64,000 nucleotides of DNA from Asterella californica (taxonomy: Eukaryota; Streptophyta; Marchantiopsida; Marchantiales; Aytoniaceae): the NCBI GenBank assembly GCA_036924285.1, contig JAYKYS010000009.1, positions 25,214,001 through 25,278,000 of the forward strand, written 5' to 3'. Both the position numbers and the translations under genes were made by a program. Below, piece by piece: positions 12,344 through 47,998 of this stretch. The notes below the pieces were generated by a model. That model was not told the DNA's origin, did not search any database, and worked only from the letters and a program-made list of their open reading frames with translations. The stretch's first letter is position 1. The number at the start of each line of letters is the position of its first letter.

Positions 12344-12347
12344 TCCG
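12344..12347. other. Left target-site duplication TCCG
   Basis: TCCG here matches TCCG at 22324-22327. Removing the element and one copy restores the reading phase of the element D zinc knuckle (C-D-E-A-D-H-I-A-K-G-C), which confirms a 4-bp duplication. Confidence 0.85.
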
Positions 12348-12641
12348 TGTCACGTCAGTTTGGGCACCTCGGCTAGGTTGACCGAGTGCGAAGTGGCGCA
12401 TCCCGGTAAGGCCGTTAGTGCCGTTAGGGCGAGTTGGGAGGAGAGTCCACTAGGGGTAAACTTCGCAGGTAGGGCTTGGAGGCCTTAGTTCTTTGAGTTG
12501 AGCCTTCAAGCTCCAGGCTATGGTGGATAGTCTAGTTGAGTGTAACTTGGATTCTCTTCGCGTTTAGAGTGGGTTTGGCTTGACCGTTTGTGAGTAATCC
12601 TTGTTGTGGTGTTGGAGATGGTAATCTCAGTATTCAGATTA
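12348..12641 (+). repeat. R1 terminal repeat, 5' copy (294 bp)
   Basis: It matches 21923-22216 with one visible difference (CTCAGTATTC here, CTCTGTATTC there). It begins TGTC, complementary to the GACA at the far end of the element. After 12641 the sequence diverges at once: the R2 block that follows the 3' copy is absent here. Confidence 0.9.
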
Positions 12642-14402
12642 CTCAAAGAACTCAGTGCAGGTCGAGGCGGAGTTCAGTAAGAGCTCGCTGATCTGAAATC
12701 TGAAATCGTCCGCTGGTATCTTCGGGCGTCGTCGTTCGTGCTTGGTTGTTGAAGCTGTGATCGAGTTGTCGCTGTGATTGAGGTGATTGCTGGTCGCAGA
12801 TCGATTTGCTGTTGTTGGGGTCGAGTGCAGATTTCTGTCATGCGGAAGCGCTGCAGAAATTTTGCGGAATGTTCTTGAAGTGTGTTGTTGGAGCCGGGTT
12901 GCGCATTTGGGCGTTGCAGACGGAGTACTTGGCAATGTCAGGCCGGAGTGGGCTCTTTGGAAGCGCATTGGAGAGACGGTTCTAGCGCACTAAGTTTCGT
13001 GGAGTTTGGTCGAGGATTGAAGAAGTTATGGCATGTCGAAGTTCGCTGCCGTGTGACCCGAAAGTACCAAAAGGCTAGTTACGTCAGATTTTGGTGCAAT
13101 TTGTTGTGGAAACTCGAGTTTAGGAGTTTTGTTGTGTGTGTGTGCATTCGCGAAGTGTGTCTTGTGCATTCGCGAATCTGTTGTGGTGGTTTTCGGGTTG
13201 GATTTGGAGGTTCTTGCTGTTTTACGTCAGATTTTGGTCACCCGTGTGCACCCGCAAGCTGTTTTCGCTGTTTTGGAGCTTCTTTTGGTGCAATCTTCTG
13301 CAATTCGAGTTGGAGCCGAGTCCCTTGGTGTGTGTTGTACCTGTTCGTCTCTACTTCAAGCGGAGCGGAGCGGAGAGTGAGCGGGAGTGTCGAGGTGTGG
13401 AGTGCGTGTTAGGAGGCGTTTAGAGGCTTCGAGGAGCAGAGGTGCGTGAGTGCGGAGGCGTGAGAGCGGAGTGCGAGAGTGCGGAGGCGGAGCGGAGCTG
13501 AGCCTGAGCCTGAGCCCGAGCCCGCGCCCGCCGCAAGCCAGCTTGCTGGCGTGCGTGAGAGAGGTATCCAAGTTCTAGTGTGTGGGAAGGGTAAAACCAG
13601 CTGGTCACCCATCCCAACACTATTTCTGGACCTGGACTCCTGACTTTTTAGTCTTAGCTTTGGCTTTACCACTAGACCAATAGCTCTTGGTGTCCTACAG
13701 GGATGCGTGCAAGTACTTATGGACTTGTTTAAGGTAGTAGGAGACCTTCTCGCACGTTCCTAGAGGAGTGGTAGGGCAACCCCATAGTATTAGGGGCAAG
13801 CTATAGTTGTGGTAGTGTTTGTCTATACCGGAGAGACGCGTATGTAGGCAGTTGGTGGCAGTTGTCTTGGGTGAGCTAGTAGAGCTACCACGTGGATGTT
13901 TTTGGAGCTACTAGAGGTGTGGACATCTAGTTAGTGACCTCCAGTGTCAGTTACGACAGTTGGTGACCATATATTGTGCATGTGGTCACCGACGAGGAGA
14001 CGTCAGTCCGGGTGGGGCTGGATTTCTCTTTAGGTGAATGTTTGAGTGTGGAGGGTTATCGTTTGGACTTCTTGTGGTTGGAACCCCTCCATATTCTGCT
14101 TCCTGTTTGTGCGCCGCGTTTGCTTGTGTTGGCGCTTGATTTCCGGAGTGAGTTCACTCCAGTGTGCTGTCGGTAGTGAGGCTGGAGTTGCGGACCAGTC
14201 AGACTACCTTTGTCTCTCTCACGGTGCGGTTGGAGTGACGACCAACAGACCGTGAGAGGCTGCCTGTGGTGATGGCAGGTACAGGTTGCCCTTATCTTGA
14301 CCGTCCTAGTAGGGGATAGGTGAGCTCAGTAGGAGCGGGGTTAGGCAAGTGATGGTTACGGTGGTGACGGAGATTGCGACTTCCGGTTGGGGAGTGTGCT
14401 AG
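12642..14402 (+). other. Long untranslated leader of the methyltransferase element
   Basis: About 1.76 kb with no convincing protein. It contains a GC-rich GCGGAG/CTGAGCC-type simple repeat (about 13360-13550) and a SINE-like tract (13575-13690). An in-frame stop at 14400-14402 bounds the open frame. I found no plant-type initiator-Met primer site next to R1. Splicing or internal initiation cannot be judged from sequence. Confidence 0.5.
13575..13690 (-). repeat. SINE-like tract with tRNA-type A box and 5S-like word
   Basis: The minus strand reads TGGTCTAGTGG, a good pol III A box in a tRNA-like 5' arm. A weak B-box-like GGAGTCCAGGTCC follows about 36 bases later, then GGGATGGGTGACC, which resembles the conserved 3' control region of 5S rRNA. 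No full tRNA fold or complete 5S gene is present. A tRNA-derived SINE remnant is the best guess. Confidence 0.35.
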
Positions 14403-14591
14403 CGGGATTCTCTCATCACGGAGTTCTCGGGAGGTTCTGGTGGGGACTTCTCCGACAGTGGGTATACACGGAGTGGGGTGAGGTACCGACTACCTACACC
14501 ATTGCCGTCGGTTGTTCCAGAGGACGAGTCAGACGCAGACAGCGCGTTTTCTGGTGGTGAGTCTAGTGTCACCACACCGTTGTTGTGGGAC

Positions 14592-17500
14592 ATGGATGAG
14601 ATCTATGGGGCCACGAAGGGGCCTCGACGTTACTCGGGTACAGTTGGTACCATTGAGCTGGATGACTTCATCCAGGAGTTCGACAGTTGGTGCGATCTGC
14701 AGCAGATGCGGAACCCACAGCTGTTTACACCCTTCATGGCGTGGAAGGGTCTGTTCCAGCACTTGGAGGGACCGCCGATGGACGATTATCATGAGTTCAG
14801 GCGAGATTACAGTGTTGAGATCGAGTTGTGGAGACAACATTGGTCTCCCAACTACGTTTCTATCACTACTGGCGCAGTTTCGGGAGGCGTAGCACCTGCG
14901 AGTTCGGGTGCCAGTAGCAGTGGTACAGCCGCAGGTGGCGGAGTACCTACTACCAGCGGTGCGTCCACAGGTAGTGGAGCGGGTGGTAGTGTGAGCGGGA
15001 TACCACCAGGGTTTAACCCTGTGGTTCAGTTCTTCCAATGTTTGAGGAAGAACTATCAGGGTGTGCGGACCGACAAGTTGAGGAGTCTGCAGGAGTTCCA
15101 GCGGAAGACTGGAGAGAGCCTACGCGAGGCGTTTACTCGCATGAGGCGGTTGATCAGCGTTACCCAAGGGGTGACGGAAGCACAGGCAGTCCAGTTCTGG
15201 TATGGGATACTAGACCGGGAGCTGCGTAGGAGAGTTAGAGATGCTACTCTTCTTAGAGATACCGCTCCGACGTTGGCGGTTGTCTTTAGTCTGGCTGAGC
15301 GGATTGAGCTCAACATGGTGGAGGAGAGGGTGGTGGTTGCTGGGTTCAGCAAGGAGACACCACATGGAGCGACCACCTCTTCTCGAGGATCACAGGCTAC
15401 GCAACAGCGTGGTGGTGGTGGTGGTAAGGATCGTGCAGAGCAGTCACGATCGCAGGGAGGTGTTGGAGGATCTGGTGGGCAGAAGCCCATGCCGTCCTTC
15501 TCTAGTCAGCAGCAAGCGGGTCCTTGCTGGACGTGTGATGGTCCTCATCAGCAGAGGGACTGTCCACAGAGGAGAGGTTATGAGACGTCAGGGACATCAG
15601 GGACGTCTCAAGCAGTACCTAGGCAATGTGAGCATTGCGGACGACCTGGTCACAGTAGTGACCGTTGTTTTGATCTCCATCCCGAGTTGCGGCAAGGGAA
15701 GGCTGATCGTGGACGAGGCGGAGGAGCTCAGGGAGGCCGTGGTGGTCGAGCTGGAGGTAGAGGTCCAGCACCTGGGAGAGGACCGGTCGATCCACCGTCT
15801 GCTACAACGTCAGAAGCAGGTATGGCTGCTCGGATTGAGCAGTTGGAGCAGAGGATAGCTAGTATGGCTATGGCTCAGCGGAGATCAGGTGGAACAGAGG
15901 CTTCCACGTCTTATGGAGGAGAAGGAGGTGACTTCGACTTCATGGCTGGTGTGGCGCAGATTGAGGCATCTGCAGCAGTGACTAGAGGTGCAGTGCGTGC
16001 CTCTGAGCCACGAGGCGCGTCAGTGGAGTTGGATCCACAACGCGGGGAGGCTGGTAGACAAGCCAGGCTTCCCCAATCGTTCACGTTATCGGAGGCGTTG
16101 AGGACCACATCTATGGTTCCTAAACGACCTACCGATGGTGCAGTAGAGTTGGAGGCATCGACATCCAGGAGTGGGTGTGATGTGAGTCCACCTTCGACGT
16201 CTGTGGATGCGACGTCGAACCCGATGTTGGGGGCGGCTACAGCAGTTTTGCGAGCCCCACTATTCTCAGCCACGGATATGAGGGCATTGGGAGTCAACTT
16301 GGCTCCAGTGTTCCAGTTGGCGGCCACGCTCAGTGAGAGCGAGGATGTAGTTACCTCTAGTGCTGAAGTAGTTCAGCGAGAGGCGGTAGACGTGTCCATG
16401 GAGTCGAGGATCAGGACAGCTACCAGTGGTACTTGGCAAGCGGCGGCTGCTAGGTTAGATGAGTTACCAGCTAGGCCGGCGATTGACCGTGCTAGTTTGG
16501 CACCAGGTGTGGTGTTGTTGGACAACAGAAGTGGTATCTTCTGTTTGGTGGCACCTTCAGGGAAAGTGTATCGACCCCAGAAGGTCTTGTTAGACTCTGG
16601 AGCCCAACCGTTAATGTTGGGAAAGGCGGCGTGTATTGGTTTGGGTCTGAAGAAGTCCGAGATAGAGAGATGTCCATTCCAGTTGCAGACATCTCTAGGG
16701 GGATCAGGAGGTACGGCTCTACACATGACACGGGAGATGTTGACGGTGAGAGTTCGGCCAGATCACCCCACGGATGGCTCTATGGTGAAGGCCAAGGCCA
16801 TTGTTACAGCCGCAGAGTCTTATGATGTATTGGTGGGAGGTGCTGTGTTGTACCCTATGGGGTTCGTGATTGACTATTGGGCAGAGACAGCATCTTACAG
16901 ACCAGGTTGGCAGTCCGGTGAGGGACGAGTGAGCCGCTTACCAGTGCGGTTCAGTGCTAGAGTTGGGACGACGGAGCCTACACCAGGAACGATGGCATCC
17001 GTTGCAGGGTTCAGTTCGGTCATCACTTGGCCGGGCGAGTTGTTGGAGGGTAATGCCCATGCGGAGGATACTCCGATCTATGAGGAGGTGGAGGACATGC
17101 CTAACATGTCTACGTTAGTACCATCTGCCTTGGATGTTCCACTCTGGAGTTCGAGTGGAGAGTTGCAGCAGTATGCTGATCAGTTGGTGCAGCAGGCTTG
17201 GAGTGAAGCTTTTGTACCACCAGTAGAGGAACAAAGGGTTGTTCCTGCTACTGGCCCTGTGACCTTATCACCGTTGGATACGACTCCCATTGTGTGGCAG
17301 TATCCAGAGGAAGGTGTATGTGTGCTGGAGCTGTTTGGAGGGATCAACACAGGTTTGGCTGCGGTATTGCAAGCAGGTATACAAGTACAGCGATACTTGT
17401 ATGTGGAGAGAGATGAGATTGCGAGACGCATCTCATTGCGACATGTGGCACGTTTGGTGCAGAGATATCCTGAGTTGTTGCCCATATCAGCTGTTAGAGG

Positions 17501-18515
17501 ATACCAGCAAGCATTACCGTCGGATATTTCGCTGCTGGGGGCGCAGGATCTCACGTTTGTGGGCACCATTCACTTGGTGATAGCCGGATGGCCATGTCAA
17601 GGTCACACGCGTGCAGGGAGAGGTCAGGGTTTACATGACCCGCGATCTAGGATGTTCTGGGAGATGTTACGGATCTTACGACATCTCCAGATGCATCAGG
17701 TGGATTCTCCAGCGTACATCTTGGAGAACGTTCCTTTGTTGGGTGATGCTCGTACACATATGATGGCGAGTGTGCACCAAGTGCGGTCTTGGGTTGGACC
17801 AGCAGTGTTGTTGGATGCAGCGACAGTGGGATCTCGTGCACATCGTCCACGGTTGTGGTGGACGAACTTGTTACCGAGAGAGGTGCTTAAGCGCGCACAC
17901 GATGGAGTGAGACGACCAGCGCACCTCACGGTTGATAGCATCTTGGATGCAGGACGACGATCTCAAGTAGTGAGAGTCGTCGATAGGTCACCCATGGCAG
18001 TGGTGAACCTAGTGGGACGGCCCATGGTAGCATTACCCACATTGGTAAGCTTTCCAGCGTCACATGCTTACAGAGATGGAGGACCTGGGCTTGTGTGGGA
18101 TGCTCAATTACGGCAGTTGGTGGAGCCCAATGCCGATGAGAGAGAGCGAGCGATGGGTTTCACTACGGGTACGACGGCAGTAGCTTCGGTGTCGGAGGCT
18201 TCACGTCGTCAAGTATTGGGTCAAGCAATGGACTTGAATTGCTTGACATGGATTGTTAGCCTTGGATTGGCTGAGCAGCGTCGGATGCGATCGACGGGTG
18301 TTACTGCTCGAGCACTCTTGAGCTCTTTGCCTACCGGGTCGGTGGAGGCAAAGGCTGGGGGCGAGGCACGTGGAGTTCGTCATCCTTGGACATCATGGGA
18401 TGTCATAGAAGAGAGTGTGGAGTTTGCAGCTAGAACTGCAGAAGTTTTACACACAGTAGCGGTGGAGGTTGTTGGTGGTGAGCAGAAGGAAACTGCTCCA
18501 GAGGCTGCAAGATAG
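14592..18515 (+). CDS. Gag - aspartic protease - DNMT3-like cytosine methyltransferase polyprotein
   Basis: 1307 residues from the first in-frame ATG; the frame is open from 14403 but has no earlier ATG. The N-terminal third is a retrotransposon Gag with a Gly/Ser-rich linker and two zinc knuckles: CWTC-x3-H-x4-C at residue 312 (15525) and C-x2-C-x4-H-x4-C at 346 (15627). The retropepsin motif LLDSGA is at residue 668 (16593). Residues 909-1229 form a C5 methyltransferase: motif I VLELFGGINTG (911), the catalytic Cys in GWPCQG (codon 17595-17597, residue 1002), ENV (1045), AHRPRLWWTN (motif VIII, about 1083) and a C-terminal SRRQVLGQAM block like motif X. The SxxHRxRxxWxN and C-terminal patterns resemble DNMT3 more than DNMT1 or Dcm. 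All key residues are present, so it may be catalytic. It would act on DNA in the capsid or in the nucleus. It ends at a UAG that is probably read through. Confidence 0.9.
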   Translation: MDEIYGATKGPRRYSGTVGTIELDDFIQEFDSWCDLQQMRNPQLFTPFMAWKGLFQHLEGPPMDDYHEFRRDYSVEIELWRQHWSPNYVSITTGAVSGGVAPASSGASSSGTAAGGGVPTTSGASTGSGAGGSVSGIPPGFNPVVQFFQCLRKNYQGVRTDKLRSLQEFQRKTGESLREAFTRMRRLISVTQGVTEAQAVQFWYGILDRELRRRVRDATLLRDTAPTLAVVFSLAERIELNMVEERVVVAGFSKETPHGATTSSRGSQATQQRGGGGGKDRAEQSRSQGGVGGSGGQKPMPSFSSQQQAGPCWTCDGPHQQRDCPQRRGYETSGTSGTSQAVPRQCEHCGRPGHSSDRCFDLHPELRQGKADRGRGGGAQGGRGGRAGGRGPAPGRGPVDPPSATTSEAGMAARIEQLEQRIASMAMAQRRSGGTEASTSYGGEGGDFDFMAGVAQIEASAAVTRGAVRASEPRGASVELDPQRGEAGRQARLPQSFTLSEALRTTSMVPKRPTDGAVELEASTSRSGCDVSPPSTSVDATSNPMLGAATAVLRAPLFSATDMRALGVNLAPVFQLAATLSESEDVVTSSAEVVQREAVDVSMESRIRTATSGTWQAAAARLDELPARPAIDRASLAPGVVLLDNRSGIFCLVAPSGKVYRPQKVLLDSGAQPLMLGKAACIGLGLKKSEIERCPFQLQTSLGGSGGTALHMTREMLTVRVRPDHPTDGSMVKAKAIVTAAESYDVLVGGAVLYPMGFVIDYWAETASYRPGWQSGEGRVSRLPVRFSARVGTTEPTPGTMASVAGFSSVITWPGELLEGNAHAEDTPIYEEVEDMPNMSTLVPSALDVPLWSSSGELQQYADQLVQQAWSEAFVPPVEEQRVVPATGPVTLSPLDTTPIVWQYPEEGVCVLELFGGINTGLAAVLQAGIQVQRYLYVERDEIARRISLRHVARLVQRYPELLPISAVRGYQQALPSDISLLGAQDLTFVGTIHLVIAGWPCQGHTRAGRGQGLHDPRSRMFWEMLRILRHLQMHQVDSPAYILENVPLLGDARTHMMASVHQVRSWVGPAVLLDAATVGSRAHRPRLWWTNLLPREVLKRAHDGVRRPAHLTVDSILDAGRRSQVVRVVDRSPMAVVNLVGRPMVALPTLVSFPASHAYRDGGPGLVWDAQLRQLVEPNADERERAMGFTTGTTAVASVSEASRRQVLGQAMDLNCLTWIVSLGLAEQRRMRSTGVTARALLSSLPTGSVEAKAGGEARGVRHPWTSWDVIEESVEFAARTAEVLHTVAVEVVGGEQKETAPEAAR

Positions 18516-18521
18516 CAGTCA
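18513..18521 (+). promoter_or_regulatory. Probable stop-codon readthrough site UAG CAG UCA
   Basis: The only stop between the two halves is UAG followed by CAG UCA. This fits the UAG-CAR-YYA readthrough context known from tobamoviruses. The frame downstream is open and in phase, with ten sense codons before the next ATG at 18546. Readthrough would yield a Gag-PR-MTase-RT-RH-IN-PHD fusion at a low ratio. Confidence 0.75.
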
Positions 18522-18545
18522 ACGACTTCGTCTTCTACCTCTAGC

Positions 18546-21500
18546 ATGGTGACAGAGGATACTTGGGAGCCGGAGATCGGACCCAAGCTTATAGGAGAGG
18601 AGAGACGAAGAGTTCAAAGATTCCTGAAGAGCTACAGGAATTGTTTTGCCTTCAGTATGAAGGATTTGGGTACCTTGAAGGGACCTGGTATACGGATCGA
18701 CTTGGCTAATGACACGCCAATCTTTCGACGTCCTTACAGGTACAGTGACATGGAGAGAGCCTTGATCCAGAGTCGGACTCAAGACTTGTTGGAGGCTGGG
18801 TTGGTGGAGATGTCGCATGGAGAGTATGCATCTGCCACAGTTATGCCAGCCAAGAAGGATATGTATGGCAACTACACAGATAGACGGATGTGTGGAGACT
18901 ATCGTCCTATCAATCGGCAGACGAAGTCTGATAAGTATGCCATGCCGACACCTGAGGAGATCTTTGATGCAGTGGGGCATGTGAAGGTCTTCAGTACTTT
19001 GGATCTTCGAGCAGGGTATCACCAGTTGCCAGTGAGAGAAGAAGATAAGTCCAAGACAGCATTCTGGGGAATTGACTCTCACGGCAAGGATTGTTTGTAT
19101 CAGTGGCGGTTCTTACCATTTGGGTTGAAGAACGCCCCTGCTGAGTTCCAAAGGGTGATGGACAGAATCCTAGCAGGATTGGATTTTGTCAGATGTTATA
19201 TTGACGACATCTTAGTCTATAGTGCTACAGTGGAGGAGCACGAGAGACACTTACGGGATGTGTTTGAGCGGTTGAGAGCTCATGGGTTGAAGTTACACCC
19301 TGGGAAGTGTAAGTTCTTCCAGGAGTTGGTAGAGTATCTGGGCCACACCATCTATCCAGGTGGATTGGGTGTTCAACAGACGAAGGTTGAGGCTATTGCA
19401 CGTATCCCGCGCCCCACAGATGTGAGTCGAGTTCGGGCATTTGTTGGTTTGGCGAACTTCTATCGTCGGTACGTGAAGGGATTTAGTGCAATTGCGAAGC
19501 CGTTGACCAAGCTGATGAAGGTGGACCAGGAGTGGCAGTGGGGAGATGAGCAGGAGCGAGCTTTTGTAGAGCTCAAGGATAGGTTGACATCTGCTCCCAT
19601 CTTGAGGAGACCCGTTAGAGGGCGTCCTTTCCAACTGCACACCGATTGGAGTATGTTGGGACTTGGAGCAGTGCTGACTCAGCATGATGATGAGAAAAAG
19701 GAGTTCGTGGTGGCGTATGCCAGTCGCTCCAACAATTCAGCGGAGGCGAGGTATAGTTCGTACGAGGGAGAGTGTTTGGCGGCAGTGTGGGCTGTTGCAC
19801 ACTTTCGATGTTATCTGTTTGGGAACCCCTTTACTCTCATCACTGATCACCAGCCGCTCAAGTGGTTGATGGAGTCCGACAAGCTTACAGGGAAGCTTGC
19901 ACGATGGGCTCTGATCTTACAGGAGTATGACTTCCAGGTAATACATAGACCTGGAGTCGCAAACCTAGATGCCGATGGGTTGAGTCGCAACCCATGCACG
20001 AGTCAGCAGGACCAGACTGGGGCTCGCTGGCATGACGAGGTTGATGAGGAGATAGTGCCAGGGTGGCATGCATCTGCCTTTCTTTGTGTGTTGGCCATGA
20101 ACTCTAGTATGGAGGGCCAAGTCGTATCTTTCTCTGGTCAGAGAGTAGATGACGAGTCTCCAGATCCTGAAGGTGGAGATGGTGTTTCAGACCAGCGAGA
20201 TATCCATGATGATGTGACCGTGATGGAGTATCTACGTACTGGTGTGGTAGTAGGCACAGTAAGTGCCAAGGAGCGAGATCGTGTCCTTCAACGAGCGAAG
20301 AGATTTCGACGAGAAGGACGACATGTACTTCGAGTGTGGGGTGATGAGAGGGTACGGATAGTGCCACATCCATCCCAGAGGGCACAGTTAGTACGACATG
20401 CCCATGAGGAGTTGGGACATTTTGGAGTGAAGCGTACGCATAGCTTACTCCAAGGACAGTATTGGTGGCGTGGTATGCACATCGATGTGCAACAGTTTGT
20501 CGCACGATGTGTGGTTTGTGATCGAGTACGAGCATCGTTTAATGCTCCTACTCCACAGTTACACCCCTTACCGATTATGGGGTTGGGTTACCGTTGGAGT
20601 TTGGATTTTGCGGGACCCTTACCGTTGACCGTACGTCACCACCGGTATGTGTTGGTGATGGTGGAGCACTTCTCCAAGTGGATTGAGTTGGTGGCATTAC
20701 CGGACAAGGCAAGTGAAGGGACGGCGTATGCGTTCTTAGATCGAGTGCTGAGTCGTTTTGGAGCACCAGCTGAAGTGCTGACCGACCAAGGTACAGAGTT
20801 CCTTGGTGAGTTTCAGGCCTTGTGTGATCAGGCGCTGATTGATCATCGGACTACATCTCGAGATCATCCTGAGGCTGATGGTTTGGCGGAGAGGGTAGTT
20901 CAGACGGTGAAGAGAGGATTGCGCAAGTATGGCTTGCAGAAGGGCCACTTGGGAGACTGGGATGTGCAGCTACCGTGGTTGGCTATGGGCTACCGTTTCA
21001 GCCGGCAAGCGTCTTTGGCTTCCTTCTCACCGTATTTTCTATTGTATGGCCGAGATCCAGATCTACCTTCGGCCATTCGTCGTGATTCTGCTGAGGTGCT
21101 GAACCTTGATGACCCGGATATGTGGGTGAGAGCATGTTCTCAACGAGCAGAGACATTTCGGAGAGTTATGCCTATGGCTTTCGAGAACCTAGCGATTGCT
21201 CAGCATAGAGACACGTTGCGATATGCGACTATCCGAGGAGGAGGTTATCGGCCATCGATTCGCAGGTTTCATCCTGGCGATTATATCTATCTACAGCAGA
21301 CTGCACCGACGACGTTGGATGTGACCGCAGGGCGCACTATTTTACGAGTGCGAGAGGTGTTACCTTCTGGAGTACTCATGTTAGAGGGCCGTGATGGTGT
21401 TGTGTGGAAGGACCATGTGCGTAATTGCGCGCCATGTCATCTTCCCAACATTGATGGTACCGTTGACCCAAGCTTAGCAGTTGTACGCGCGGGCTTGAGG

Positions 21501-21641
21501 TGTATGTTGTGTGGGTCTGCTGGTGGAGCAGCCCGTATGTTGGTGTGTGATGGTTGTTCGAGAGGTTGGCACATGTCATGTTTGACTCCACCTCTCAGTG
21601 TAGTTCCTACTGGACGGTGGGTTTGTCCTCGATGTATATAG
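18546..21641 (+). CDS. Pol: reverse transcriptase - RNase H - DDE integrase - PHD finger
   Basis: 1031 residues if counted from the ATG, though it is probably made as a readthrough extension of the preceding frame (same phase). RT has LDLRAGYHQ and the catalytic YIDD at residues 218-221 (19197-19208). RNase H has HTDWS (Asp 367), a Tyr-Glu pair in SYEGECLA and TDHQPLKWL. The integrase has an HHCC zinc region (about 617-660) and the acidic triad Asp 687, Asp 747 and Glu 782 (codons 20604, 20784, 20889). After a beta-rich C-terminal region the protein ends in a PHD finger, residues 986-1030, with spacing C-x2-C-x11-C-x2-C-x4-H-x2-C-x14-C-x2-C and the conserved Trp before the last Cys pair. The PHD occupies the place of a chromodomain, so it probably directs integration to modified or unmodified H3 tails (inference). 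No frame damage is seen. Confidence 0.92.
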   Translation: MVTEDTWEPEIGPKLIGEERRRVQRFLKSYRNCFAFSMKDLGTLKGPGIRIDLANDTPIFRRPYRYSDMERALIQSRTQDLLEAGLVEMSHGEYASATVMPAKKDMYGNYTDRRMCGDYRPINRQTKSDKYAMPTPEEIFDAVGHVKVFSTLDLRAGYHQLPVREEDKSKTAFWGIDSHGKDCLYQWRFLPFGLKNAPAEFQRVMDRILAGLDFVRCYIDDILVYSATVEEHERHLRDVFERLRAHGLKLHPGKCKFFQELVEYLGHTIYPGGLGVQQTKVEAIARIPRPTDVSRVRAFVGLANFYRRYVKGFSAIAKPLTKLMKVDQEWQWGDEQERAFVELKDRLTSAPILRRPVRGRPFQLHTDWSMLGLGAVLTQHDDEKKEFVVAYASRSNNSAEARYSSYEGECLAAVWAVAHFRCYLFGNPFTLITDHQPLKWLMESDKLTGKLARWALILQEYDFQVIHRPGVANLDADGLSRNPCTSQQDQTGARWHDEVDEEIVPGWHASAFLCVLAMNSSMEGQVVSFSGQRVDDESPDPEGGDGVSDQRDIHDDVTVMEYLRTGVVVGTVSAKERDRVLQRAKRFRREGRHVLRVWGDERVRIVPHPSQRAQLVRHAHEELGHFGVKRTHSLLQGQYWWRGMHIDVQQFVARCVVCDRVRASFNAPTPQLHPLPIMGLGYRWSLDFAGPLPLTVRHHRYVLVMVEHFSKWIELVALPDKASEGTAYAFLDRVLSRFGAPAEVLTDQGTEFLGEFQALCDQALIDHRTTSRDHPEADGLAERVVQTVKRGLRKYGLQKGHLGDWDVQLPWLAMGYRFSRQASLASFSPYFLLYGRDPDLPSAIRRDSAEVLNLDDPDMWVRACSQRAETFRRVMPMAFENLAIAQHRDTLRYATIRGGGYRPSIRRFHPGDYIYLQQTAPTTLDVTAGRTILRVREVLPSGVLMLEGRDGVVWKDHVRNCAPCHLPNIDGTVDPSLAVVRAGLRCMLCGSAGGAARMLVCDGCSRGWHMSCLTPPLSVVPTGRWVCPRCI

Positions 21642-21812
21642 CGGAGATAGTCAATTAGATCTTTGCGTGGTATGGATTGCAGACAGGCGACTAACGATGG
21701 GGCGATGTAGCACCCGGCCTCCTGATCCTTGCACCCATGAAGGTGTGTATCACGTAGTTGAGATATGGAGCTATCTGGAGTTAGAGGGACCTAACCGCCA
21801 GTTAGGGGGGCG
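21642..21812 (+). other. 3' untranslated region of the methyltransferase element
   Basis: 170 bases without a frame. It includes a G-rich tract (GTTAGGGGGGCG, about 21801-21812) directly before the first R2 copy, a possible polypurine primer. Confidence 0.45.
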
Positions 21813-21920
21813 ATTGTGGTACACTTGTGTATGTGTATGACATTGTCCATGTGTTATGTGTATGTGTGGTGTTTCTCTGACAGCGATGTATGTTGTGTAG
21901 CGATGTGTATGCGCACGACA
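21813..21920 (+). repeat. R2 repeat, internal copy (108 bp)
   Basis: It starts ATTGTGGTACAC and ends CGCACGACA. It is identical to 22216-22323 and separated by two bases (GC) from the 3' R1 copy. A diverged minus-strand R2 is found at 39064-39166 and another in copy 2 beside R1. Confidence 0.9.
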
Positions 21921-21922
21921 GC

Positions 21923-22216
21923 TGTCACGTCAGTTTGGGCACCTCGGCTAGGTTGACCGAGTGCGAAGTGGCGCATCCCGGTAAGGCCGTTAGTGCCGTT
22001 AGGGCGAGTTGGGAGGAGAGTCCACTAGGGGTAAACTTCGCAGGTAGGGCTTGGAGGCCTTAGTTCTTTGAGTTGAGCCTTCAAGCTCCAGGCTATGGTG
22101 GATAGTCTAGTTGAGTGTAACTTGGATTCTCTTCGCGTTTAGAGTGGGTTTGGCTTGACCGTTTGTGAGTAATCCTTGTTGTGGTGTTGGAGATGGTAAT
22201 CTCTGTATTCAGATTA
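21923..22216 (+). repeat. R1 repeat, 3' copy (294 bp)
   Basis: A near-perfect copy of 12348-12641. It is immediately followed by the second R2, sharing one base at the joint. Confidence 0.9.
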
Positions 22217-22323
22217 TTGTGGTACACTTGTGTATGTGTATGACATTGTCCATGTGTTATGTGTATGTGTGGTGTTTCTCTGACAGCGATGTATGTTGTG
22301 TAGCGATGTGTATGCGCACGACA
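22216..22323 (+). repeat. R2 repeat, terminal copy (108 bp)
   Basis: Identical to 21813-21920. It forms the true 3' end of the element (CACGACA at 22323), directly followed by the target duplication TCCG. Confidence 0.9.
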
Positions 22324-22327
22324 TCCG
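22324..22327. other. Right target-site duplication TCCG
   Basis: Pairs with 12344-12347. The gag of element D resumes in phase on this side. Confidence 0.85.
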
Positions 22328-38114: not shown

Positions 38115-39063
38115 GAAATGGTCTCGTGGACTTCGAAAGCTCGTCCGGCATCCATACGTCTCAGAAAGACATCTAACAGTGGAATATATTCCGCTGTCTG
38201 TTGATGAATGTTGTCATTTCCAACAGCAGGGTTTGCGTCAATGAGAGACTCCATCTCTGCTATCGGTACTTCTCGCTGCGGATCAATAGATGCGACGGAC
38301 GAGTCACTCCACGTTGCTCCATCTCCCTCGGTATACCTCCTCCTGCACTAGCCATAGCGTCTATTGTCTTGCCAAAAGAAGATGTTCTGAACATCTTTTG
38401 CGTTGACTTCAGCATGATGCAAAAAAGATTTCCACATAGAGTCTATTCTCCGTTCTTGCATTCCACCTTGGATGAGCCAGCGTGGAGAAGTGCTGTATTT
38501 CCTACAGGTTAGCATGGTTCTCAAACACGTGCGGATGGTAGTAGACAACTAATGAGAGTTCCTATACTTATAAAACTAGAGTGCTCGAGCAAGTACATTT
38601 GCATAAGTAAGTTCAACATGATTTTTTGTGTCCTTAGCACCTAGAAGAACATATATATCATTCTCGTCAGTTAACGTGCTCTCAGAAATATTTTTCATTG
38701 TCACATGATGATACTCCTCCTTTTTATCCTTCATACAGTAAAGGAGCATACCAACATAGATGTGCAACCCACGATTTGTCAAAGACTTGACACACAAAGC
38801 AGTCATAAGCCATTTCTTAACATGCGGGCAATTCTTTGCATGGATGCAGACGACTCTTTGAAAGTGCAAATGAAACAGAGCGCCCACACGTTCTACAAAA
38901 AACAAACCCGAAATACAGTACTTCTCTAGAAATAGTGTCAACGACGAAAATAGTTGTAAGTCCAGACCCCTCTGTCTTACAAATAGTGATGACACCTCAG
39001 TACTCTTGTCGAGATTGAACGGATTTGTCTTCTTCGCTCTTGCTTCCCTTCGCAGAGACATTG
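38115..39063 (-). pseudogene. Decayed HUH-type (Replitron/Helitron-like) replicase fragment
   Basis: The longest open piece (38576 to about 39063) reads SGLFFVERVGALFHLHFQ, where H-L-H is a plausible HUH metal-binding motif. It continues with TNRGLHIYVGMLLYCMKDK, where a Tyr could be the nucleophile, and ends with NVLARAL. After one stop the frame continues with SPRWLIQGG, MWKSFLHH and NIFFWQDNRRYG (about 38348-38548). Another protein-like stretch runs to about 38115. This block order matches HUH replicases of algal transposons as I remember them. The N-terminus is missing and abuts copy 2 of the methyltransferase element. It is interrupted by at least two stops. Confidence 0.55.
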
Positions 39064-39190
39064 TCATGCGCATATACATCACTACATAACATATATCACT
39101 ATCAGAGATACATCATACATATACATAACACATGGACGATCTCATACACATACAAGAGTATACCACAGTGATAAACGGTATGTACTAACT
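39064..39190 (-). repeat. Terminal R2 fragment of copy 2 of the methyltransferase element
   Basis: 39068-39166 is a diverged reverse complement of the R2 repeat (CATACATCACTACATAACATA and so on). It continues across the C1 insertion into R1-like sequence at 56449, giving R2-R1-R2 order on the minus strand as in copy 1. Confidence 0.7.
39186..39190. other. Target duplication of C1 (TAACT)
   Basis: TAACT here and TCACT at 56444-56448 are a 5-bp duplication with one mismatch. Confidence 0.6.
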
Positions 39191-39567
39191 TGTAACACTA
39201 CAGAAACTCTAATCGCGATCCTCAAGAACACTCATGAATAGACGGAAGAACTCTCAACTCAACTCAAGGTGGAATGTCTTTCAAGGACCATTCTCCTTCT
39301 TTATATAGTTAGATAAGTGCACACCCCAATCCATACTAACCACTCATCAATCCTCACACGGATTGATGACATGGCTTCCATGCAACCCACACAATCAACT
39401 ACCAATCAAATATCAACACCACCACATTCTTATCCGGTCCCACATACCATGGTCCCACTATAGTCAACTCTACACATATCTTATCCGGTCCCATATACCA
39501 TGGTCCCGCTATAGTCAACTCTACACATAGTTCTAACTATGAGTATAGTTAACTATGCATGGTTACA
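39191..39567 (-). repeat. 3' LTR of C1 (377 bp)
   Basis: TGTAACAC...GGTTACA. It contains a TATA-like CTTTATATAG near 39300. A purine tract follows at 39568-39585 (minus strand AAATGGAGGGAGGTT). Confidence 0.9.
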
Positions 39568-39580
39568 AACCTCCCTCCAT

Positions 39581-42500
39581 TTAAGTTGCAACGTCCTCGT
39601 TGATGATGGAATGCTCATAAGCTTGAACTAACAAGTCGGCATTAGTCAAATTTCCTAGTGGTTCCCAAGTAGCCTCATATAATGGATATCCTTTCCATTT
39701 TACCAAGTATTCTATCTTGGGATATCGAGTACCATGAAGACGTTTGTTCAGTATGCTTTCTACCTCGTATTCCTCATGATCATCCACTATTTCTGGCAAT
39801 GGTGGTGCTATGTGAGGATTGGTGAAACGAGGAGAACGTGGAACATATTTCCTCAATAAAGAAACATGAAACACCGGATGCATGCGCATATGAATTGGAA
39901 GTTGTAATTTGTACGCCACAGCTCTAACTCGTCGTAAGATGGTGAATGGACCGATGTATCTAGGGTTAAATTTGCGAACACCTACTAACGATAAGTTAGT
40001 GGTAGAAAACCACACTTTCTCCCCAATGTCAAACTCCACATGACGACGATGAGCATCTGCATATTGCTTCTGACGATTTTGAGCAGTTTGAATCTTCTCC
40101 TTGGCTTGGTGAACACCTGCATGGATCTTCTGCACAAATTCGTTGACGGCAGCAACTTTGGTTGTTGACTCCTGTCCTGATCCAAATCTAGTAAAACTAG
40201 AAGGAGTGAGCGGATGTGCGCCGTACATCAAGTAGAACGGTGTAGCTTTTGTCGATGCGTTCACAGAGTTATTGTAGGAGAACTCTACTAAAGGTAGGAG
40301 TTCATCCCACCTCGCTTGCTCTTCAATCGTAAAAGCTCGTAACATATCTTCTATCGTACGATTAGCCCGTTCTGTTTGTCCATCACTCTGAGGATGGTAA
40401 GCTGTGGACATAGCAAGCTTAGTTTTGAATAACCCAAACAAGGTTTTCCAAAACATGCTTGTAAAATGTGATCCCCTATCAGTAATTAAGATTCTAGAAA
40501 GACCATGTTGAGCAAAAACAGCGTCTAAGTAGATTTGAGCTAGCTCTGGTGCAGTAACAGTCTTCTTGGTTGGACGAATATGAATCATTTTGCTCAACTT
40601 ATCAACAAAAACTACAATAGAGTCAAATCCCATACTAGTTGGAGGTAGTTCACACACTAAATCCATACTCACATGTTCCCATCGGTTAGTAGGAATAGGT
40701 AATGGTTGGAGTAAGCCTGCCGGTGTTTGATTGGTTGCCTTGTTCTGTTGACAAGCAAGACAACTTTTGATGTATCTCATCACATCATCGTGCATTTTTG
40801 GCCAATAATAAATGCGCTGCACCGCCTCCAAAGTCTTCTCTATTCCGACATGACCGGCAATCGTTGAATCATGACATTCTGTCAAGATAGTCGTACGAAG
40901 CTCTGGATTGTTGGGAATCCAAACTTTGCCGTCCTTGAATGCTAACCCATGCATCTTGGTAAGCTTGGTGTGCTTAGTTGCTGCCACAATCTCCTCATCC
41001 GTTCTGGTAGCTTCCATCAATTGTTGCCACCAATCGGAATGGATCTTCACTTCTGTCGACATGTGATTAACTCGAGGCATTCGAGTTAACGCATCAGCAA
41101 GTTGCTTTTTCTCTTCCACGTATAGAATCTGCATGTTGAAGCGTTGTCGCCATTCCGCCCATCGAATTGACGTTTGGAGAGGTCCTTCTGTGTCTGCAAG
41201 TAAACCAATGGTTTGTGGTCTGTTTCTACCACAAACTCCTTATCTCCCAAGTAGTGCTTCCAATGCTTGGTAGCCAACACAATAGCTAACTCCTCTCTTT
41301 CTGTGGTATGATAGTTGCGTTCTGCAGGAAGCAACTTACGGGAAAAAAAAGCTACAGGATGCCAGCCATCTGCCCATGCTTGTTGTAACACTGCTCCTAT
41401 TGCTGTACCTGATGCATCTGTGGCCAACTTAATGGGTTTTGTAGGATCATACCACTTAAAGATTGGTGCTTGTAACAGCGCGTCCTTCAAGGCTTGGAAG
41501 GCAAGCTCATGCGATGTACCCCATCTCCATTTTTGTCCTTGACCTAATAGGTTTGTCAAGTCCTGTGCAACTTGTGCAAAGTTTTTGACAAATCTACGAT
41601 AGAACCCCGTAAGTCCTAGAAAACTCTTTAACTGGGTTTGATCTTCTGGAGCACTCCACTTTTGGATTGCCTCAATCTTATCGCTCATGACTTGGATTCC
41701 TGCTCCACTCACACGATGTCCTAGGTAATCTACATCGCTCTTGCCAAACTCACATTTAGAGATCTTGGCATATAGCTGGTTTTGTCTAAGTACTTGTAAA
41801 ATCTCCTGTAAGTGCATCTTATGCTCTTGCAACGTCTTACTATAGACAAGAATATCATCTAGGAATACAATGACAGATCTATCCAAGTATGGTCGAAAGA
41901 TGTCATTCATTAGACCCATAAATGTAGCGGGTGCATTAGTGAGACCAAAAGGCATCACTAAGTACTCAAAGTGACCGTACCTTGTACGAAAAGCAGTCTT
42001 TTGTACATCTGGCTCAGCAATCCGGATCTGATTATAACCGCTTCGTAAATCCAATTTGGTGAAGTACTTTGCTCCTCGTAGTTGATCAAACAAGTCATCC
42101 ATTCGAGGTAATGGATACTTATTCTTCACAGTCTGAAGATTGAGAGCTCGATAGTCAATGCACATACGCATACTCCCGTCCTTCTTCTTCACGAACAAGA
42201 CCGGAGCTCCATAAGGAGATACACTAGGTTGGATGAATCCTTTGTGTAACAGTTCCTCCACTTGAGCTTTGCACTCCTCCAACTCGTGCGGTGCTAATCG
42301 ATATGGTGCTTTACAAGGAGGTGCACTACCTGGAAGTACCTCAATCTTGTGATCCACTCGCCTTCTTGGTGGTAATCCGGAAGGTAAATCATTCGGGAAA
42401 ACATCTTTGAATTCTTCTACAATCATTTTGAAACTATCCGGAATATCGCCATCATAGTTGGAACTATAAGCTTCTCTTATTAACCCCAAGAAACATACAT

Positions 42501-43016
42501 CACCACTATGAATAGCGGTCTGTTCTATCACATACAGAGGTATGTTTCTAGATCGAGATCTTACTATGTCTCCAAAAACTATCCACCCCTTACTCTTCAC
42601 AATCTTCTTTCTCCAATCCACCTCCGGATTGTATTGCTCCATCCAAGGCATACCCAAAATGACATCATAACGAGCTAATCGAATAACTCGCCATTCAATC
42701 TTTTCTGAATATTGCCCTATAGTGAGCGCTACACTCCGTGGGAGAGACTCAATCATCTCAGTGTGCCCGTTTGGCAGCTCTACTTCTTCCTTGTCATCCT
42801 TTTCCAAAGCCAAATCCAATCTCATAGCAACTGAACGCGACAGAAAGTTCTCAGTTGCGCCAGGATCAATCAACACTCTCACCTTAATGCCTTCTAACAC
42901 TCCATCAGTAACGATTAGTTGCGTAGTCCTTCGTGTCAATCCATTTAACTCCTTCTTTTGTCCTCCATTCTCGCCTTTTCTTCTCTTTGTTGAACCAGTA
43001 CGACGACGAGGTAAAT
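39581..43016 (-). pseudogene. C1 pol: protease-RT-RNase H-integrase-chromodomain, one frameshift
   Basis: From the gag stop the minus frame, one base back relative to gag, reads PVDLPRRR. It then runs through a protease with [12 protein letters not shown] (D-P-G in place of D-S-G), RT with [10 protein letters not shown] and the FLDD box near 41858, and RNase H ([10 protein letters not shown]). Near 41165 a single-base indel in RNase H shifts frame. The second part (39581-41134 and a few codons upstream) has the rest of RNase H, the integrase HHCC region (HDSTIAGHVGIEKT to CLACQQNK), the catalytic Asp in SMDLVCELP and ITDRGSHF, the Glu in DGQTERAN, and a chromodomain near the C-terminus (YEVESILNKR, EYLVKWKGYP, ATWEP). 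Everything else is open. Confidence 0.88.
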
Positions 43017-44239
43017 CTACTGGTGCTCTTCATTTTCCAAAACTGGATTGTTGTACTGCATCTCTCCTTCCTCTCCACCTTCCTCTGCTCTATCATTCAG
43101 ATGATTCAGAGGTCTTCGATAAGTAGCTCGATTTCCTCGAGGGAATCGGGTGCGACAATGAGCAGCTATGTGCCCAATTCTCCCACAGTTATAACAACGC
43201 CGTGTCTCTCCTTGAAGCTCTTGATTTCGAATGCCGTCACCAATATCACCATCCCTCGGAAGTCCTCGAGGTACATAGTTACGAACTCCACCTCCGACAC
43301 CGCCACCTCGTGGTATCACTTCTCGTCTTGGTTGCTCTCTAGCACGATCTCTCCGATCCTCTCCATAGAATTGTCGTGCATAACCGTCCCGTTGCCGAAG
43401 ATTACCCAATTCCATGGGCATTGGACCTCCATATTGAACTCGCGGTACGATTGGTGGTTCCCCCCCTCTAGCGATACCTAATGCACAAGCAATTCTTTGG
43501 GCATAACCGATTGCTTCGAACACGGTACGTGGATTATTCACCATGACTTCTTGACGAATTCTCTCCTTCAATCCGCGTTTGAACACGTCTAAAGCTTCTG
43601 CCTGGCTCATATCAGAGATAGCTACTTGTAGATCTTGAAATTCCTCTACGTATTCTTGGAGACTTCCTCGTTGCTTGAGATCCCAGAGCTTCATTCGAGC
43701 CATCTGCACTGAATCCACTGATTGGAAATTCTGCAGCAAACCTTCTTGCATATTGCTCCATGTTACTTGACTTCCTCCAGCAATCATCGAACGCTCCCAT
43801 GTATCGTACCATGTAAGCGCTTTATCCATCAAGTAACCACTTGCAAATACTCCCGCAGAGTAATCATTGACTTGTGCTTGAAAAAGTCTCATGTAACGAT
43901 TCATACGAGAAATCCAATTCTCTAGAATACCCATTGCTCGATTACCTCGATAAGGTTCCACGTTACACGTCTTCTTCATGCGAAGCAATAGAGCATCTTC
44001 CCCTCCACTGCACTTTGGACCCCTAAAACAACCTCTTCTCTATGTAATGTCTCCGCTGCTTGCGTTGGAACTTGTGATGGATCACCCATCTCCATTGCTC
44101 TCACATTCTCTCCCTCTAGAGTTGCTATCTTGCTCTCTAGTGTCCTCACCACTGTCGTCATCTCTCGAAACTCATTGAGCATGTTCTGCATGATCTCACG
44201 CATCTCCGTGCCTTGTTGCTCCATGTTATTTCCACTCAT
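43017..44239 (-). pseudogene. C1 gag, one frameshift
   Basis: It starts at ATG 44239 (MSGNNMEQQ) with a coiled-coil-like N-terminus. At about 44000, within a G-run, the frame shifts by one base into the main piece (43017-43988). That piece holds the capsid domain (YLMDKALTWYDTWER) and a CCHC zinc knuckle CYNCGRIGHIAAHC near 43190. It ends in EEHQ and a TAG stop. The same EEHQ-stop ends the gag of C2, so this terminus is natural and the upstream shift is decay. Confidence 0.85.
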
Positions 44240-44289
44240 TCTAACGTCTCTCAACACTCTCAGTCCTTACACCACTCTTTCTACTACCT

Positions 44290-44490
44290 TCAATACAATG
44301 TCAGTATCACTACACGAAAACGCCTCACGAACAAAGGTATCACAAAAGGTTGAGGCGACGAGATAACTTCTTGATAGAATGCCTCTCCAAATTCTCTCAC
44401 TATTTCCTCACGGTATGTCACCTTGGGACGACATGTATAATGAACTGCGCACCAAGTGTTGAAGGTGGTTGGTGGTCGATTCAGATCCAT
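44290..44490 (-). CDS. LORF-B of C1: small leader protein of unknown function
   Basis: 66 residues from ATG 44490 (MDLNRPPTTFNTW). It is conserved in C2 (61359-61538) and in both G1 LTRs (47226-47429, 55634-55837), with shared blocks MDLN-P, FN-W, C-RPK, FG--(F/Y)Y, SP-PFVIP and a C-terminal VVILTLY. It lies 50 bases upstream of the C1 gag, downstream of LORF-A on the transcript. Conservation of the frame between diverged elements suggests a real protein. It resembles LORF-A, as if by duplication. No known domain recognised. Confidence 0.6.
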   Translation of the reverse strand: MDLNRPPTTFNTWCAVHYTCRPKVTYREEIVREFGEAFYQEVISSPQPFVIPLFVRRFRVVILTLY

Positions 44491-44523
44491 ATCCTCCTAA
44501 AGCAAGATATAGAGCGTGAGGTC

Positions 44524-44796
44524 TCACGTAGCAGCATACGTTACGATCGGAAGAATCACAGGGACAGGTGAGTTCATCACTTGCGTCATGAAAGCATCTC
44601 CGAAGTGCGCCACCAAATAAACCTGAAAATGATGACGTGCAATGTAGAGGAGTTTGATATGGAAAGGATTCAAAAACGGAAAATCTGGAACTCTATGAAT
44701 CCTCCTTCCATGTGTACCAAATTTTGCAATTTTGGCAGTTTGACCCCCTATCTTCCGAAGACTATAACTCGAGTTTCCTTGGGTCAAATCTCGCAT
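44524..44796 (-). CDS. LORF-A of C1: small leader protein of unknown function
   Basis: 90 residues from ATG 44796. The conserved part begins DFPFLNPFHIKLLY and continues HFQVYLVAHFGDAFM, then SPVPVILPIVTY before the stop. Homologous frames occur in C2 (61571-61759) and in the G1 LTRs (47436-47651, 55844-56059). The N-terminal 30 residues are not shared. The HFG--FM---SPVPVI-PIVTY pattern parallels FG--FY---SPQPFVIP in LORF-B. Function unknown. Confidence 0.6.
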   Translation of the reverse strand: MRDLTQGNSSYSLRKIGGQTAKIAKFGTHGRRIHRVPDFPFLNPFHIKLLYIARHHFQVYLVAHFGDAFMTQVMNSPVPVILPIVTYAAT

Positions 44797-45232
44797 TTGT
44801 TGAACCCTTGGATAGCTTATCTTGCCAATTAGAAATTTGCAAAGATTCTACTTGAGATTTGACAACCTCAAAACATGGCAGTGACTGTAAAATCCTTCCC
44901 GAGAGCGAAATGTGAAAAAACCGAAAAAATCTGAAAAAACCCCCTCACATTTCGAATGTCATATCTTTCAAACTATAAATGATCTCCATGAGATTTCAAG
45001 TGTCATAGGTAGCTTAGTCCTCCCTCTATAACATACTAAAAGTTGAAATGATTTCAACTTTCTCTCAAAGTTTCACAAGGACTGTAAGCAGCTCGAGTTT
45101 TCACTATTTCTATAACTTTCTCTCACTACTATTGAAAATTCGAAATTTCTCTCCACTCATGTGCATCAAATCACAAGGTTTCTTTGCAATTCTTTCTCCT
45201 AAGAGGGGTAATCCACTCTCTCAGAAGAAGAG

Positions 45233-45248
45233 CCTTGCTCTGATACCA
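45233..45248 (-). other. Primer binding site of C1 (initiator-Met tRNA)
   Basis: The minus strand reads TGGTATCAGAGCAAGG one base inside the 5' LTR. TGGTATCAGAGC is the standard complement of the 3' end of plant initiator-Met tRNA. Confidence 0.9.
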
Positions 45249-45249
45249 T

Positions 45250-45568
45250 TGTAACACTACAGAAACTCTAATCGCGATCCTCAAGAACACTCATGAATAG
45301 ACGGAAGAACTCTCAACTCAACTCAAGGTGGAATGTCTTTCAAGGACCATTTTCTTTCTTTATATAGTTAGATAAGTGCACACCCCAATCCATACTAACC
45401 ACTCATCAATCCTCACACGGATTGATGACATGGCTTCCATGCAACCCACACAATCAACTACCAATCAAATATCAACACCACCACATTCTTATCCGGTCCC
45501 ACATACCATGGTCCCACTATAGTCAACTCTACATATATCTTATCCGGTCCCACATACCATGGTCCCGC
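45250..45568 (-). repeat. 5' LTR of C1, first part (319 bp)
   Basis: Matches 39191-39509. The remaining 58 bases are at 56386-56443, beyond G1. Confidence 0.9.
45565..45568. other. Target duplication of G1 (CCGC)
   Basis: CCGC here and at 56382-56385. The uninterrupted sequence in the other C1 LTR is TCCCGCTATAG, so the duplicated 4 bp are certain. Confidence 0.88.
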
Positions 45569-47225: not shown

Positions 47226-47429
47226 CTAATACAACGTCAATATTACAACTTGGAAACGTTCTACAATAAAAGGTATGACAAAAGGAAACGGTGAAGCTAT
47301 CACTCGATTGTAATATTCTTGCCCGAAGTTTCTCACGATCCAAGCCCCATGATTGATCTTCGGTCTGCAATGGCACCGGACATCGACCCAAAGATTGAAA
47401 GGAACGTTCGATGGATAGTTGAGATCCAT
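47226..47429 (-). CDS. LORF-B inside the G1 3' LTR
   Basis: 67 residues from ATG 47429 (MDLNYPSNVPFNLW) to VVILTLY-stop. Homologous to LORF-B of C1 and C2, but carried within the LTR instead of the leader. Translation from this downstream copy would require transcription into the 3' LTR. Confidence 0.55.
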   Translation of the reverse strand: MDLNYPSNVPFNLWVDVRCHCRPKINHGAWIVRNFGQEYYNRVIASPFPFVIPFIVERFQVVILTLY

Positions 47430-47435
47430 TGTTCC

Positions 47436-47651
47436 TCACAACAAAATGTACACCGTCATATCCCAAGTCTCTCCGTATGTTACGATTGGAAGGATCACCG
47501 GAAGCTGTAACTCCATCACCCTCCCCATGAACTCATCACCAAAGTACGCAACTAACCACTGTCGAAAGTGATCGTGGTGGATGCAATGAAGCTTGATGTG
47601 AAACGAATTCGGGAAAGGAAGATCCGGAGCCGGTAACACACCTCCGTCCAT
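47436..47651 (-). CDS. LORF-A inside the G1 3' LTR
   Basis: 71 residues from ATG 47651 (MDGGVLPAPDLPF). It contains SFHIKLHCI, the block HFRQWLVAYFGDEFM and PVILPIVTYGE, and ends WDMTVYILL. It precedes LORF-B by six bases on the transcript. Unknown function. Confidence 0.55.
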   Translation of the reverse strand: MDGGVLPAPDLPFPNSFHIKLHCIHHDHFRQWLVAYFGDEFMGRVMELQLPVILPIVTYGETWDMTVYILL

Positions 47652-47973: not shown

Positions 47974-47998
47974 TCCACCCCTTCTAAACCTGCGCATC
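47974..47998 (-). other. Polypurine tract of G1
   Basis: The minus strand reads AGAAGGGGTGGA directly before the 3' LTR start TGTCGTG. Confidence 0.75.

Follow-up and report, generated by a model that had tools for sequence, protein, structure and literature searches.

Within a 64,000-nucleotide stretch of the genome of the liverwort Asterella californica (contig JAYKYS010000009.1, positions 25,214,001 to 25,278,000; hereafter the window), a complete retrotransposon was identified at positions 12348-22323, with a G+C content of 52.8% against 43-44% in its flanks. Judged from its sequence, it is an intact retrotransposon of the Ty3/Gypsy type whose repeats are split in a DIRS-like way; it is related to KnitGypsy-Dnmt3 from the alga Klebsormidium nitens, and it carries a cytosine-C5 methyltransferase of the DNMT3 type whose catalytic motifs are intact. 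Briefly, two open reading frames (ORF1 and ORF2) share one frame and are separated by a single stop codon. ORF1 comprises a Gag-like region with zinc knuckles, a protease motif and the methyltransferase, and ORF2 comprises the reverse transcriptase (RT), RNase H, integrase and a PHD finger. The order of protease, RT, RNase H and rve integrase is that of Ty3/Gypsy elements, the protease being assigned by motif only: Pfam gave no protease match in the window's own ORFs and did give such matches at the equivalent place in two relatives (P0225 and P0276). No phage-integrase match, as expected for the tyrosine recombinase of DIRS elements, was found by Pfam in ORF1 or ORF2, the rve integrase being present instead.

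The original prediction, made from the DNA letters, placed a DNMT3-like methyltransferase between protease and RT in one open frame, and both the enzyme and its position are borne out. ORF1 matches the C5-methyltransferase family PF00145 with an E-value of 1e-8 and 35.4 bits (cut-off 22), downstream of the protease motif and upstream of the RT. The residue range given earlier for the domain, 909-1229, fits a count from the first in-frame ATG at 14592; counted from 14478, nucleotides 17316-18276 correspond to residues 947-1266. A phmmer search of the PDB returned DNMT3A at 2.6e-10, and a profile of seven rows returned DNMT3A (4e-23) and DNMT3B (1.8e-20), followed at a distance by HaeIII (9e-7), HhaI (1.5e-6) and DNMT2 (1.5e-4). 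DNMT3A and DNMT3B are the closest solved methyltransferases to the window enzyme in both sequence and fold, and the alignment to DNMT3A is colinear over the whole domain in the canonical motif order. An ADD or PWWP regulatory domain is a feature of DNMT3 proteins; a Pfam scan of ORF1 found neither, so we describe the enzyme as a DNMT3-type catalytic domain and not as a DNMT3 of animal layout. The profile also matched DRM at 2e-12 over motifs I-IV only (the motif numbers serve here as labels). An identity with DRM was rejected because of this partial alignment and because the rearranged motif order that marks DRM (PMC5890265) is absent.

Among 51 aligned retrotransposon-borne methyltransferase domains (59 minus 8 fragmentary ones), 48 retain the catalytic Cys and three have a gap there, and the Glu and Asn of motif VI and one Arg of motif VIII are kept in all 51. 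The fold is likewise intact in the predicted model. This conservation argues against a mere passenger, in which the methyltransferase would be catalytically dead or serve structure only. The divergent copies in P0246 and P0248 (86 bits) and the existence of relatives without the enzyme would speak for that view, which we regard as improbable. P0246 and P0248 are environmental proteins with the order RT-methyltransferase-integrase-PHD; P0246 has no PF00145 match, and the very divergent methyltransferase of both is possibly replaced or decaying.

In a methyltransferase tree built without host plant DNMT3 sequences, DNMT3A falls in an unresolved fork among the retrotransposon enzymes, and DNMT3A and a phage enzyme form long branches that meet. 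No ordinary host DNMT3 was recognised among the named plants in the best 120 of 223 profile matches, and the named plants in this set look like members of the retrotransposon family. The apparent fusion could in principle have arisen in assembly, by joining an exon of a host DNMT3 to a Gypsy element. No support for this was found; the frame is open throughout, and the same domain order recurs in a second contig recovered by a search of genome contigs (L002) and in Marchantia, Klebsormidium and Closterium proteins, which makes an assembly artefact exceedingly unlikely. We are nearly certain that a young retrotransposon here carries a DNMT3-like enzyme. The features of the element are listed in Table 1.

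Table 1 Features of the methyltransferase-bearing retrotransposon in the window.
Feature	Position	Strand	Remarks
Left target-site duplication TCCG	12344..12347	.	4-bp match by chance alone is 1 in 256
Repeat A1, starts TGTC (element start)	12348..12641	+	293/294 identical to A2
Long leader, A1 to ORF1 as listed	12642..14477	+	
ORF1: Gag-like, zinc knuckles, protease, methyltransferase; ends TAG	14478..18515	+	First in-frame ATG 14592
Two zinc knuckles, CX2CX3HX4C and CX2CX4HX4C	15525..15668	+	Read by eye
Protease active-site motif DSG	16593..16601	+	Motif only
DNMT3-type C5-methyltransferase; catalytic Cys 17595-17597, ENV 17724-17732	17310..18284	+	Profile, PDB and fold searches
TAG CAG TCA stop, type I readthrough context (UAG-CARYYA)	18513..18521	+	
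ORF2, same frame as ORF1: RT, RNase H, integrase, PHD	18516..21641	+	Pfam
Reverse transcriptase core (RVT_1)	18876..19352	+	Pfam
RNase H	19539..19928	+	Pfam
Integrase: H2C2 zinc domain and rve core (DDE type)	20370..20870	+	Pfam
PHD finger, C-terminal in ORF2	21501..21635	+	PF00628, 6.7e-11
Repeat B1	21813..21920	+	108/108 identical to B2
Palindromic junction CACGACAGCTGTCACG (B1 end, gc, A2 start)	21914..21929	+	Exact match in L002
Repeat A2	21923..22216	+	
Repeat B2, ends GACA (element end)	22216..22323	+	1 bp common to A2 in repeat calls
Right target-site duplication TCCG	22324..22327	.	

Relatives of the methyltransferase were found in Marchantia polymorpha (up to 75% identity), Sphagnum fallax and Closterium (58 proteins), and the profile search added Calypogeia fissa, Sphagnum troendelagicum and M. 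paleacea among the best 120 of 223 matches. For ORF2, the best 120 of 1579 matches include Riccia (81% identity over 50%), Calypogeia (83% over 73%), Klebsormidium, Closterium and the label Tetstr1, which we take to be Tetraselmis striata, a chlorophyte. The Marchantia RT is 85% identical to that of the window, and the K. nitens protein P0232, identical at 47% over 936 amino acids of ORF2, shares the window's arrangement of protease-like region, methyltransferase, RT and integrase. Out of 56 proteins with RT and methyltransferase in one frame, 44 passed a length cut; the methyltransferase precedes the RT in 20 and lies between RNase H and integrase in 24, a second architecture. The predicted PHD finger at the ORF2 C-terminus was confirmed by Pfam, and its PDB matches include KMT2C, CHD4, DPF2 and KDM5B. 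PHD fingers also occur in the Klebsormidium relative P0238 and in 29 of the 44 relatives (8 of the 20, 21 of the 24; 3 of the 29 are weak, below 25 bits), counts that describe sets from searches seeded with this family, with many of the proteins incomplete, and not a survey. The idea that the combination of PHD, readthrough and split repeats with the enzyme sets this copy apart is not supported: PHD is widespread among the relatives, the readthrough context recurs in L002, and DIRS-like repeats are found in KnitGypsy-Dnmt3.

Two family members stand under bacterial names, namely L002 (a contig of a Synechococcales metagenome-assembled genome) and P0052 (a protein of a Minisyncoccia metagenome-assembled genome), and both are probably eukaryotic contamination. 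Among viral contigs, the profile search found one locus, L001, with a phage methyltransferase, and the search with ORF2 gave no match. Two proteins with the label Tetstr1 (P0261 and P0273) start in the C-terminal half of the methyltransferase and continue with RT and integrase; no PHD was found in either.

The stop between ORF1 and ORF2 was confirmed as an in-frame TAG followed by CAGTCA, the only stop in a frame that is otherwise continuous. L002 has TAG CAA TCA at this place, and both sequences fit UAG-CARYYA, the motif that defines type I readthrough in plant RNA viruses (PMC5382211). With this context at 18513 and the frame continuing beyond it, readthrough is predicted. Among long methyltransferase rows without RT, 21 of 27, the window and L002 included, end 63-121 amino acids past the domain. 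Some of these 21 come from gene models marked as partial, so a true stop is not established for every one of them; the six remaining rows are either fragmentary or carry the domain close to the N-terminus. A stop after the methyltransferase places the enzyme on the Gag side, and it should therefore be made at the level of Gag, in excess over RT.

The repeats are arranged in the order A1, coding region, B1, A2 and B2, as in DIRS elements, so that the predicted split repeats are real; the order is known from one copy, the only complete one in the window, and B2 is missing from the second. A single difference in 294 sites separates A1 from A2, and none in 108 separates B1 from B2, in agreement with the young age first proposed. 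At the 16-nt palindrome CACGACAGCTGTCACG, which carries a CpG on each side, the two element ends are joined via 'gc', and this meeting of B1 and A2 may be likened to a circle junction. L002 has an exact copy of the 16-mer at the equivalent position, and imperfect matches, with 3 and 1 mismatches, lie near the second copy on the minus strand; when the window was shuffled 100 times, two of the shuffles gave at least three such matches. The ends of L002 have 127 identical nucleotides in common, which points to a circular assembly path. L002 confirms the B-gc-A junction and cannot by itself separate split repeats from ordinary long terminal repeats (LTRs). Eight contigs matching the junction pattern were taken as chance, since none had a tblastn match to ORF1, ORF2, P0041 or P0261, and a B-like fragment at 39062-39167 was dropped as an independent terminus for its ambiguous flank. 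An inverted repeat, GTAATCT...AGATTAC, lies at the 3' end of A1 (12590-12660). Inspection by eye revealed no tRNA primer site after A1, and scans of the window for Rfam families and tRNAs found nothing; self-priming at the inverted repeat is possible.

An RT tree of 46 rows (the 44 relatives, the window and L002) separates the two architectures by one change, with a Shimodaira-Hasegawa-like approximate likelihood-ratio support of 99. P0232 groups with the window's architecture (support 88). Methyltransferase and RT distances correlate over the 46 rows (r 0.68; 0 of 2000 permutations as high) and also within the two groups (r 0.79, 0 of 2000; r 0.45, 4 of 2000). The agreement of the two trees indicates that the enzyme has long travelled with the element. 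Between the window and L002, the methyltransferase is 50% identical, with 0.47 nonsynonymous and 2.67 (saturated) synonymous substitutions per site, ORF2 is 67% identical and the Gag part 31%. Outside both architecture groups, with the window's other Gypsy element as outgroup, lies the environmental protein P0276 (1532 amino acids). This Gypsy-type protein shows no match to the cytosine enzyme; its protease and RT are separated by a Dam adenine methyltransferase domain (PF05869, 3.6e-7), which puts an adenine writer at the place of the window's cytosine writer, and a PHD stands between its RNase H and integrase.

These observations suggest a course of action for the enzyme that we consider the likeliest of those weighed here. 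Most ribosomes would stop at the TAG and yield Gag-protease-methyltransferase in excess, and a minority would read through and add RT-RNase H-integrase-PHD. The protease would release the methyltransferase, which would then, inside the particle or at nuclear entry, add de novo methylation to the element's cDNA, probably at CG sites, and the PHD may guide the integrase complex to nucleosomes with a particular histone H3 tail. The new copy would arrive already marked and resemble resident silent DNA instead of being treated as foreign, at the cost of restrained expression, while the B1-gc-A2 junction would keep both element ends adjacent so that the termini are restored in each round. The anatomy, the motifs, the DNMT3-like fold and the conservation over a wide family come from sequence and prediction. 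Methylation of the cDNA has been proposed before, and the related SymbioDIRS-Dnmt3 enzymes perform de novo CG methylation in yeast (PMC5890265). For the account as a whole, including de novo methylation of its own cDNA by the element-borne enzyme, our confidence is tentative and falls somewhat short of even.

The PHD finger also fits another explanation, in which the methyltransferase targets host chromatin, whether at the insertion site, close by or over a wider range, and the PHD reads that chromatin; the element would then carry a portable silencing device restraining new copies. The presence of PHD in most relatives, the chromatin readers CHD4 and KDM5B among its matches, the free enzyme that Gag-side dosage would yield and the insertion-site effects discussed in PMC5890265 are all in its favor. 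The enzyme and the PHD are made on opposite sides of the stop and the protease, however, and need not stay together, and we rate this explanation as possible but rather unlikely.

Several observations weigh against cDNA methylation by the element's own enzyme. The Klebsormidium enzyme produced no methylation in yeast, a result that its authors called inconclusive since human DNMT3B failed too (PMC5890265). P0229 and P0231, inside the second architecture group, have space for the enzyme and no trace of it, which indicates that it is dispensable for some family members. The observed/expected CpG ratio of the element is 0.76 beside 0.71 and 0.79 in the flanks, so that CpG is not depleted relative to them. 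Finally, a decayed second copy of a related element lies on the minus strand at 63998-62489 and 57221-56481 (ORF2 88-91% identical; 63998-62422 and 57400-56481 in a wider delimitation), split by a nested LTR element with repeats at 57404 and 61877. With the intact copy as reference and the direction of change assumed, 118 of 165 differences in its longer piece are G-to-A or C-to-T, and the losses are highest at CHG in both the longer piece (CHG 26%, CG 15%, CHH 12%) and the shorter (CHG 29%, CG 10%, CHH 12%). In moss, a chromomethylase performs de novo CHG methylation, and DNMT3b that of CG and CHH (PMC6453930). A C-to-T loss that falls mainly on CHG is more in keeping with a host chromomethylase than with a CG enzyme, and the visible footprint is accordingly that of host silencing and not of a CG-specific self-encoded enzyme. 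Nor is this decay special to the family, because other LTR pairs in the window with 15-18 differences also show mostly transitions (13 of 16, 14 of 18 and 14 of 15).

The same decay bears on a further alternative, in which the enzyme shields cDNA or RNA intermediates from host deamination or nucleases, or methylates RNA, with any chromatin outcome secondary. Such roles were raised in PMC5890265, and the methyltransferase adjoins the RT in the polyprotein. Against them, the abundance of C-to-T changes in the decayed copy implies that integrated copies at least are unprotected, and DNMT3 is a far better match than the tRNA methyltransferase DNMT2 (4e-23 against 1.5e-4); we consider this alternative unlikely.

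Further structures were noted in the window. A piece of B-A(1-148) lies inside ORF2 of the second copy, with about 8 bp of ORF2 on each side. Two further young Gypsy-like elements are found on the minus strand at 39190-45548 and 45564-54271, their LTR pairs having 3 and 1 differences in 300, and the first ends, as read by eye, in a chromodomain-like sequence.

More speculatively, split-repeat retroelements in general might have methyltransferases as functional companions, the cases being DIRS elements (Dam or Dnmt3) and the present Gypsy family (Dnmt3). The enzyme would mark the termini or junction of a replication intermediate joined at the B-gc-A palindrome and thereby direct integrase cutting to the correct one of them or ensure proper restoration of the ends. 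This would explain why the enzyme is kept over great divergence, in two places in Pol and at Gag dosage through a leaky stop, and we nonetheless give it little credence. In any case, DNA methylation is one of the chief weapons of plants against transposons, and a transposon carrying the writer turns that weapon round. For the question of what a retrotransposon gains from a methyltransferase, the two architectures could serve as natural replicates. Marchantia polymorpha is a genetically tractable plant, and the occurrence of the family there makes any such benefit testable in a laboratory plant.

Methyltransferases captured by retrotransposons have already been described, as the original prediction had stated, in dinoflagellates and one charophyte alga (PMC5890265); DNMT3 embedded in retrotransposons of streptophytes and dinoflagellates is also mentioned in PMC12344493, and a 2019 article states that methylase-bearing transposons are absent from land plants such as tracheophytes (PMC6338049). 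The parts consulted of the main text of PMC5890265 contain no mention of PHD, readthrough or Marchantia, and those of PMC9998398 and PMC8616336 nothing on bryophyte members; among the titles listed in a literature search of open-licence papers, none concerned bryophyte members, PHD or readthrough of such elements. The 2018 report is now joined by liverwort and moss proteins, those of M. polymorpha included. New here are the relatives in bryophytes (Marchantia, Calypogeia and Sphagnum) and in Closterium, the second architecture, in which RNase H and integrase flank the enzyme, the PHD in the relatives, and the readthrough context UAG-CAR-YYA and 16-nt palindromic junction, both of which recur in L002 despite its divergent methyltransferase.

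The closest known system is KnitGypsy-Dnmt3, which has Gypsy domains, a Dnmt3 with conserved residues in the Pol ORF under purifying selection, and a DIRS-like repeat order (de Mendoza et al. 2018, PMC5890265). The window's element has in common with it the Gypsy body, the DNMT3-type enzyme in canonical motif order inside the polyprotein and the DIRS-like repeats; in P0232, from the same alga, methyltransferase and RT lie in one open protein model, whereas a TAG stands between them in the window. The Klebsormidium retrotransposon copies form a more divergent, intronless clade (PMC5890265). SymbioDIRS-Dnmt3 and SymbioLINE-Dnmt of Symbiodinium are likewise retrotransposon-borne cytosine methyltransferases, and SymbioDIRS resembles the window's family in its split repeats, Dnmt3 in Pol and two domain orders (PMC5890265). 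DIRS elements with a Dam adenine methyltransferase also combine split repeats with a DNA methyltransferase (PMC6338049), but their enzyme is of an unrelated fold (PMC5890265) and they use a tyrosine recombinase. The host bryophyte protein PpDNMT3b has the DNMT3-family catalytic domain in common with the window enzyme and is a host gene, outside any polyprotein (PMC6453930). DIRS elements have a tyrosine recombinase and LINEs an endonuclease, whereas the window's element has a DDE-type rve integrase core and a target-site duplication. Chromodomain Gypsy elements (chromoviruses) carry a chromatin-reader domain at the C-terminus of the integrase, and the present element likewise carries a C-terminal chromatin reader, with a PHD finger in place of the chromodomain.

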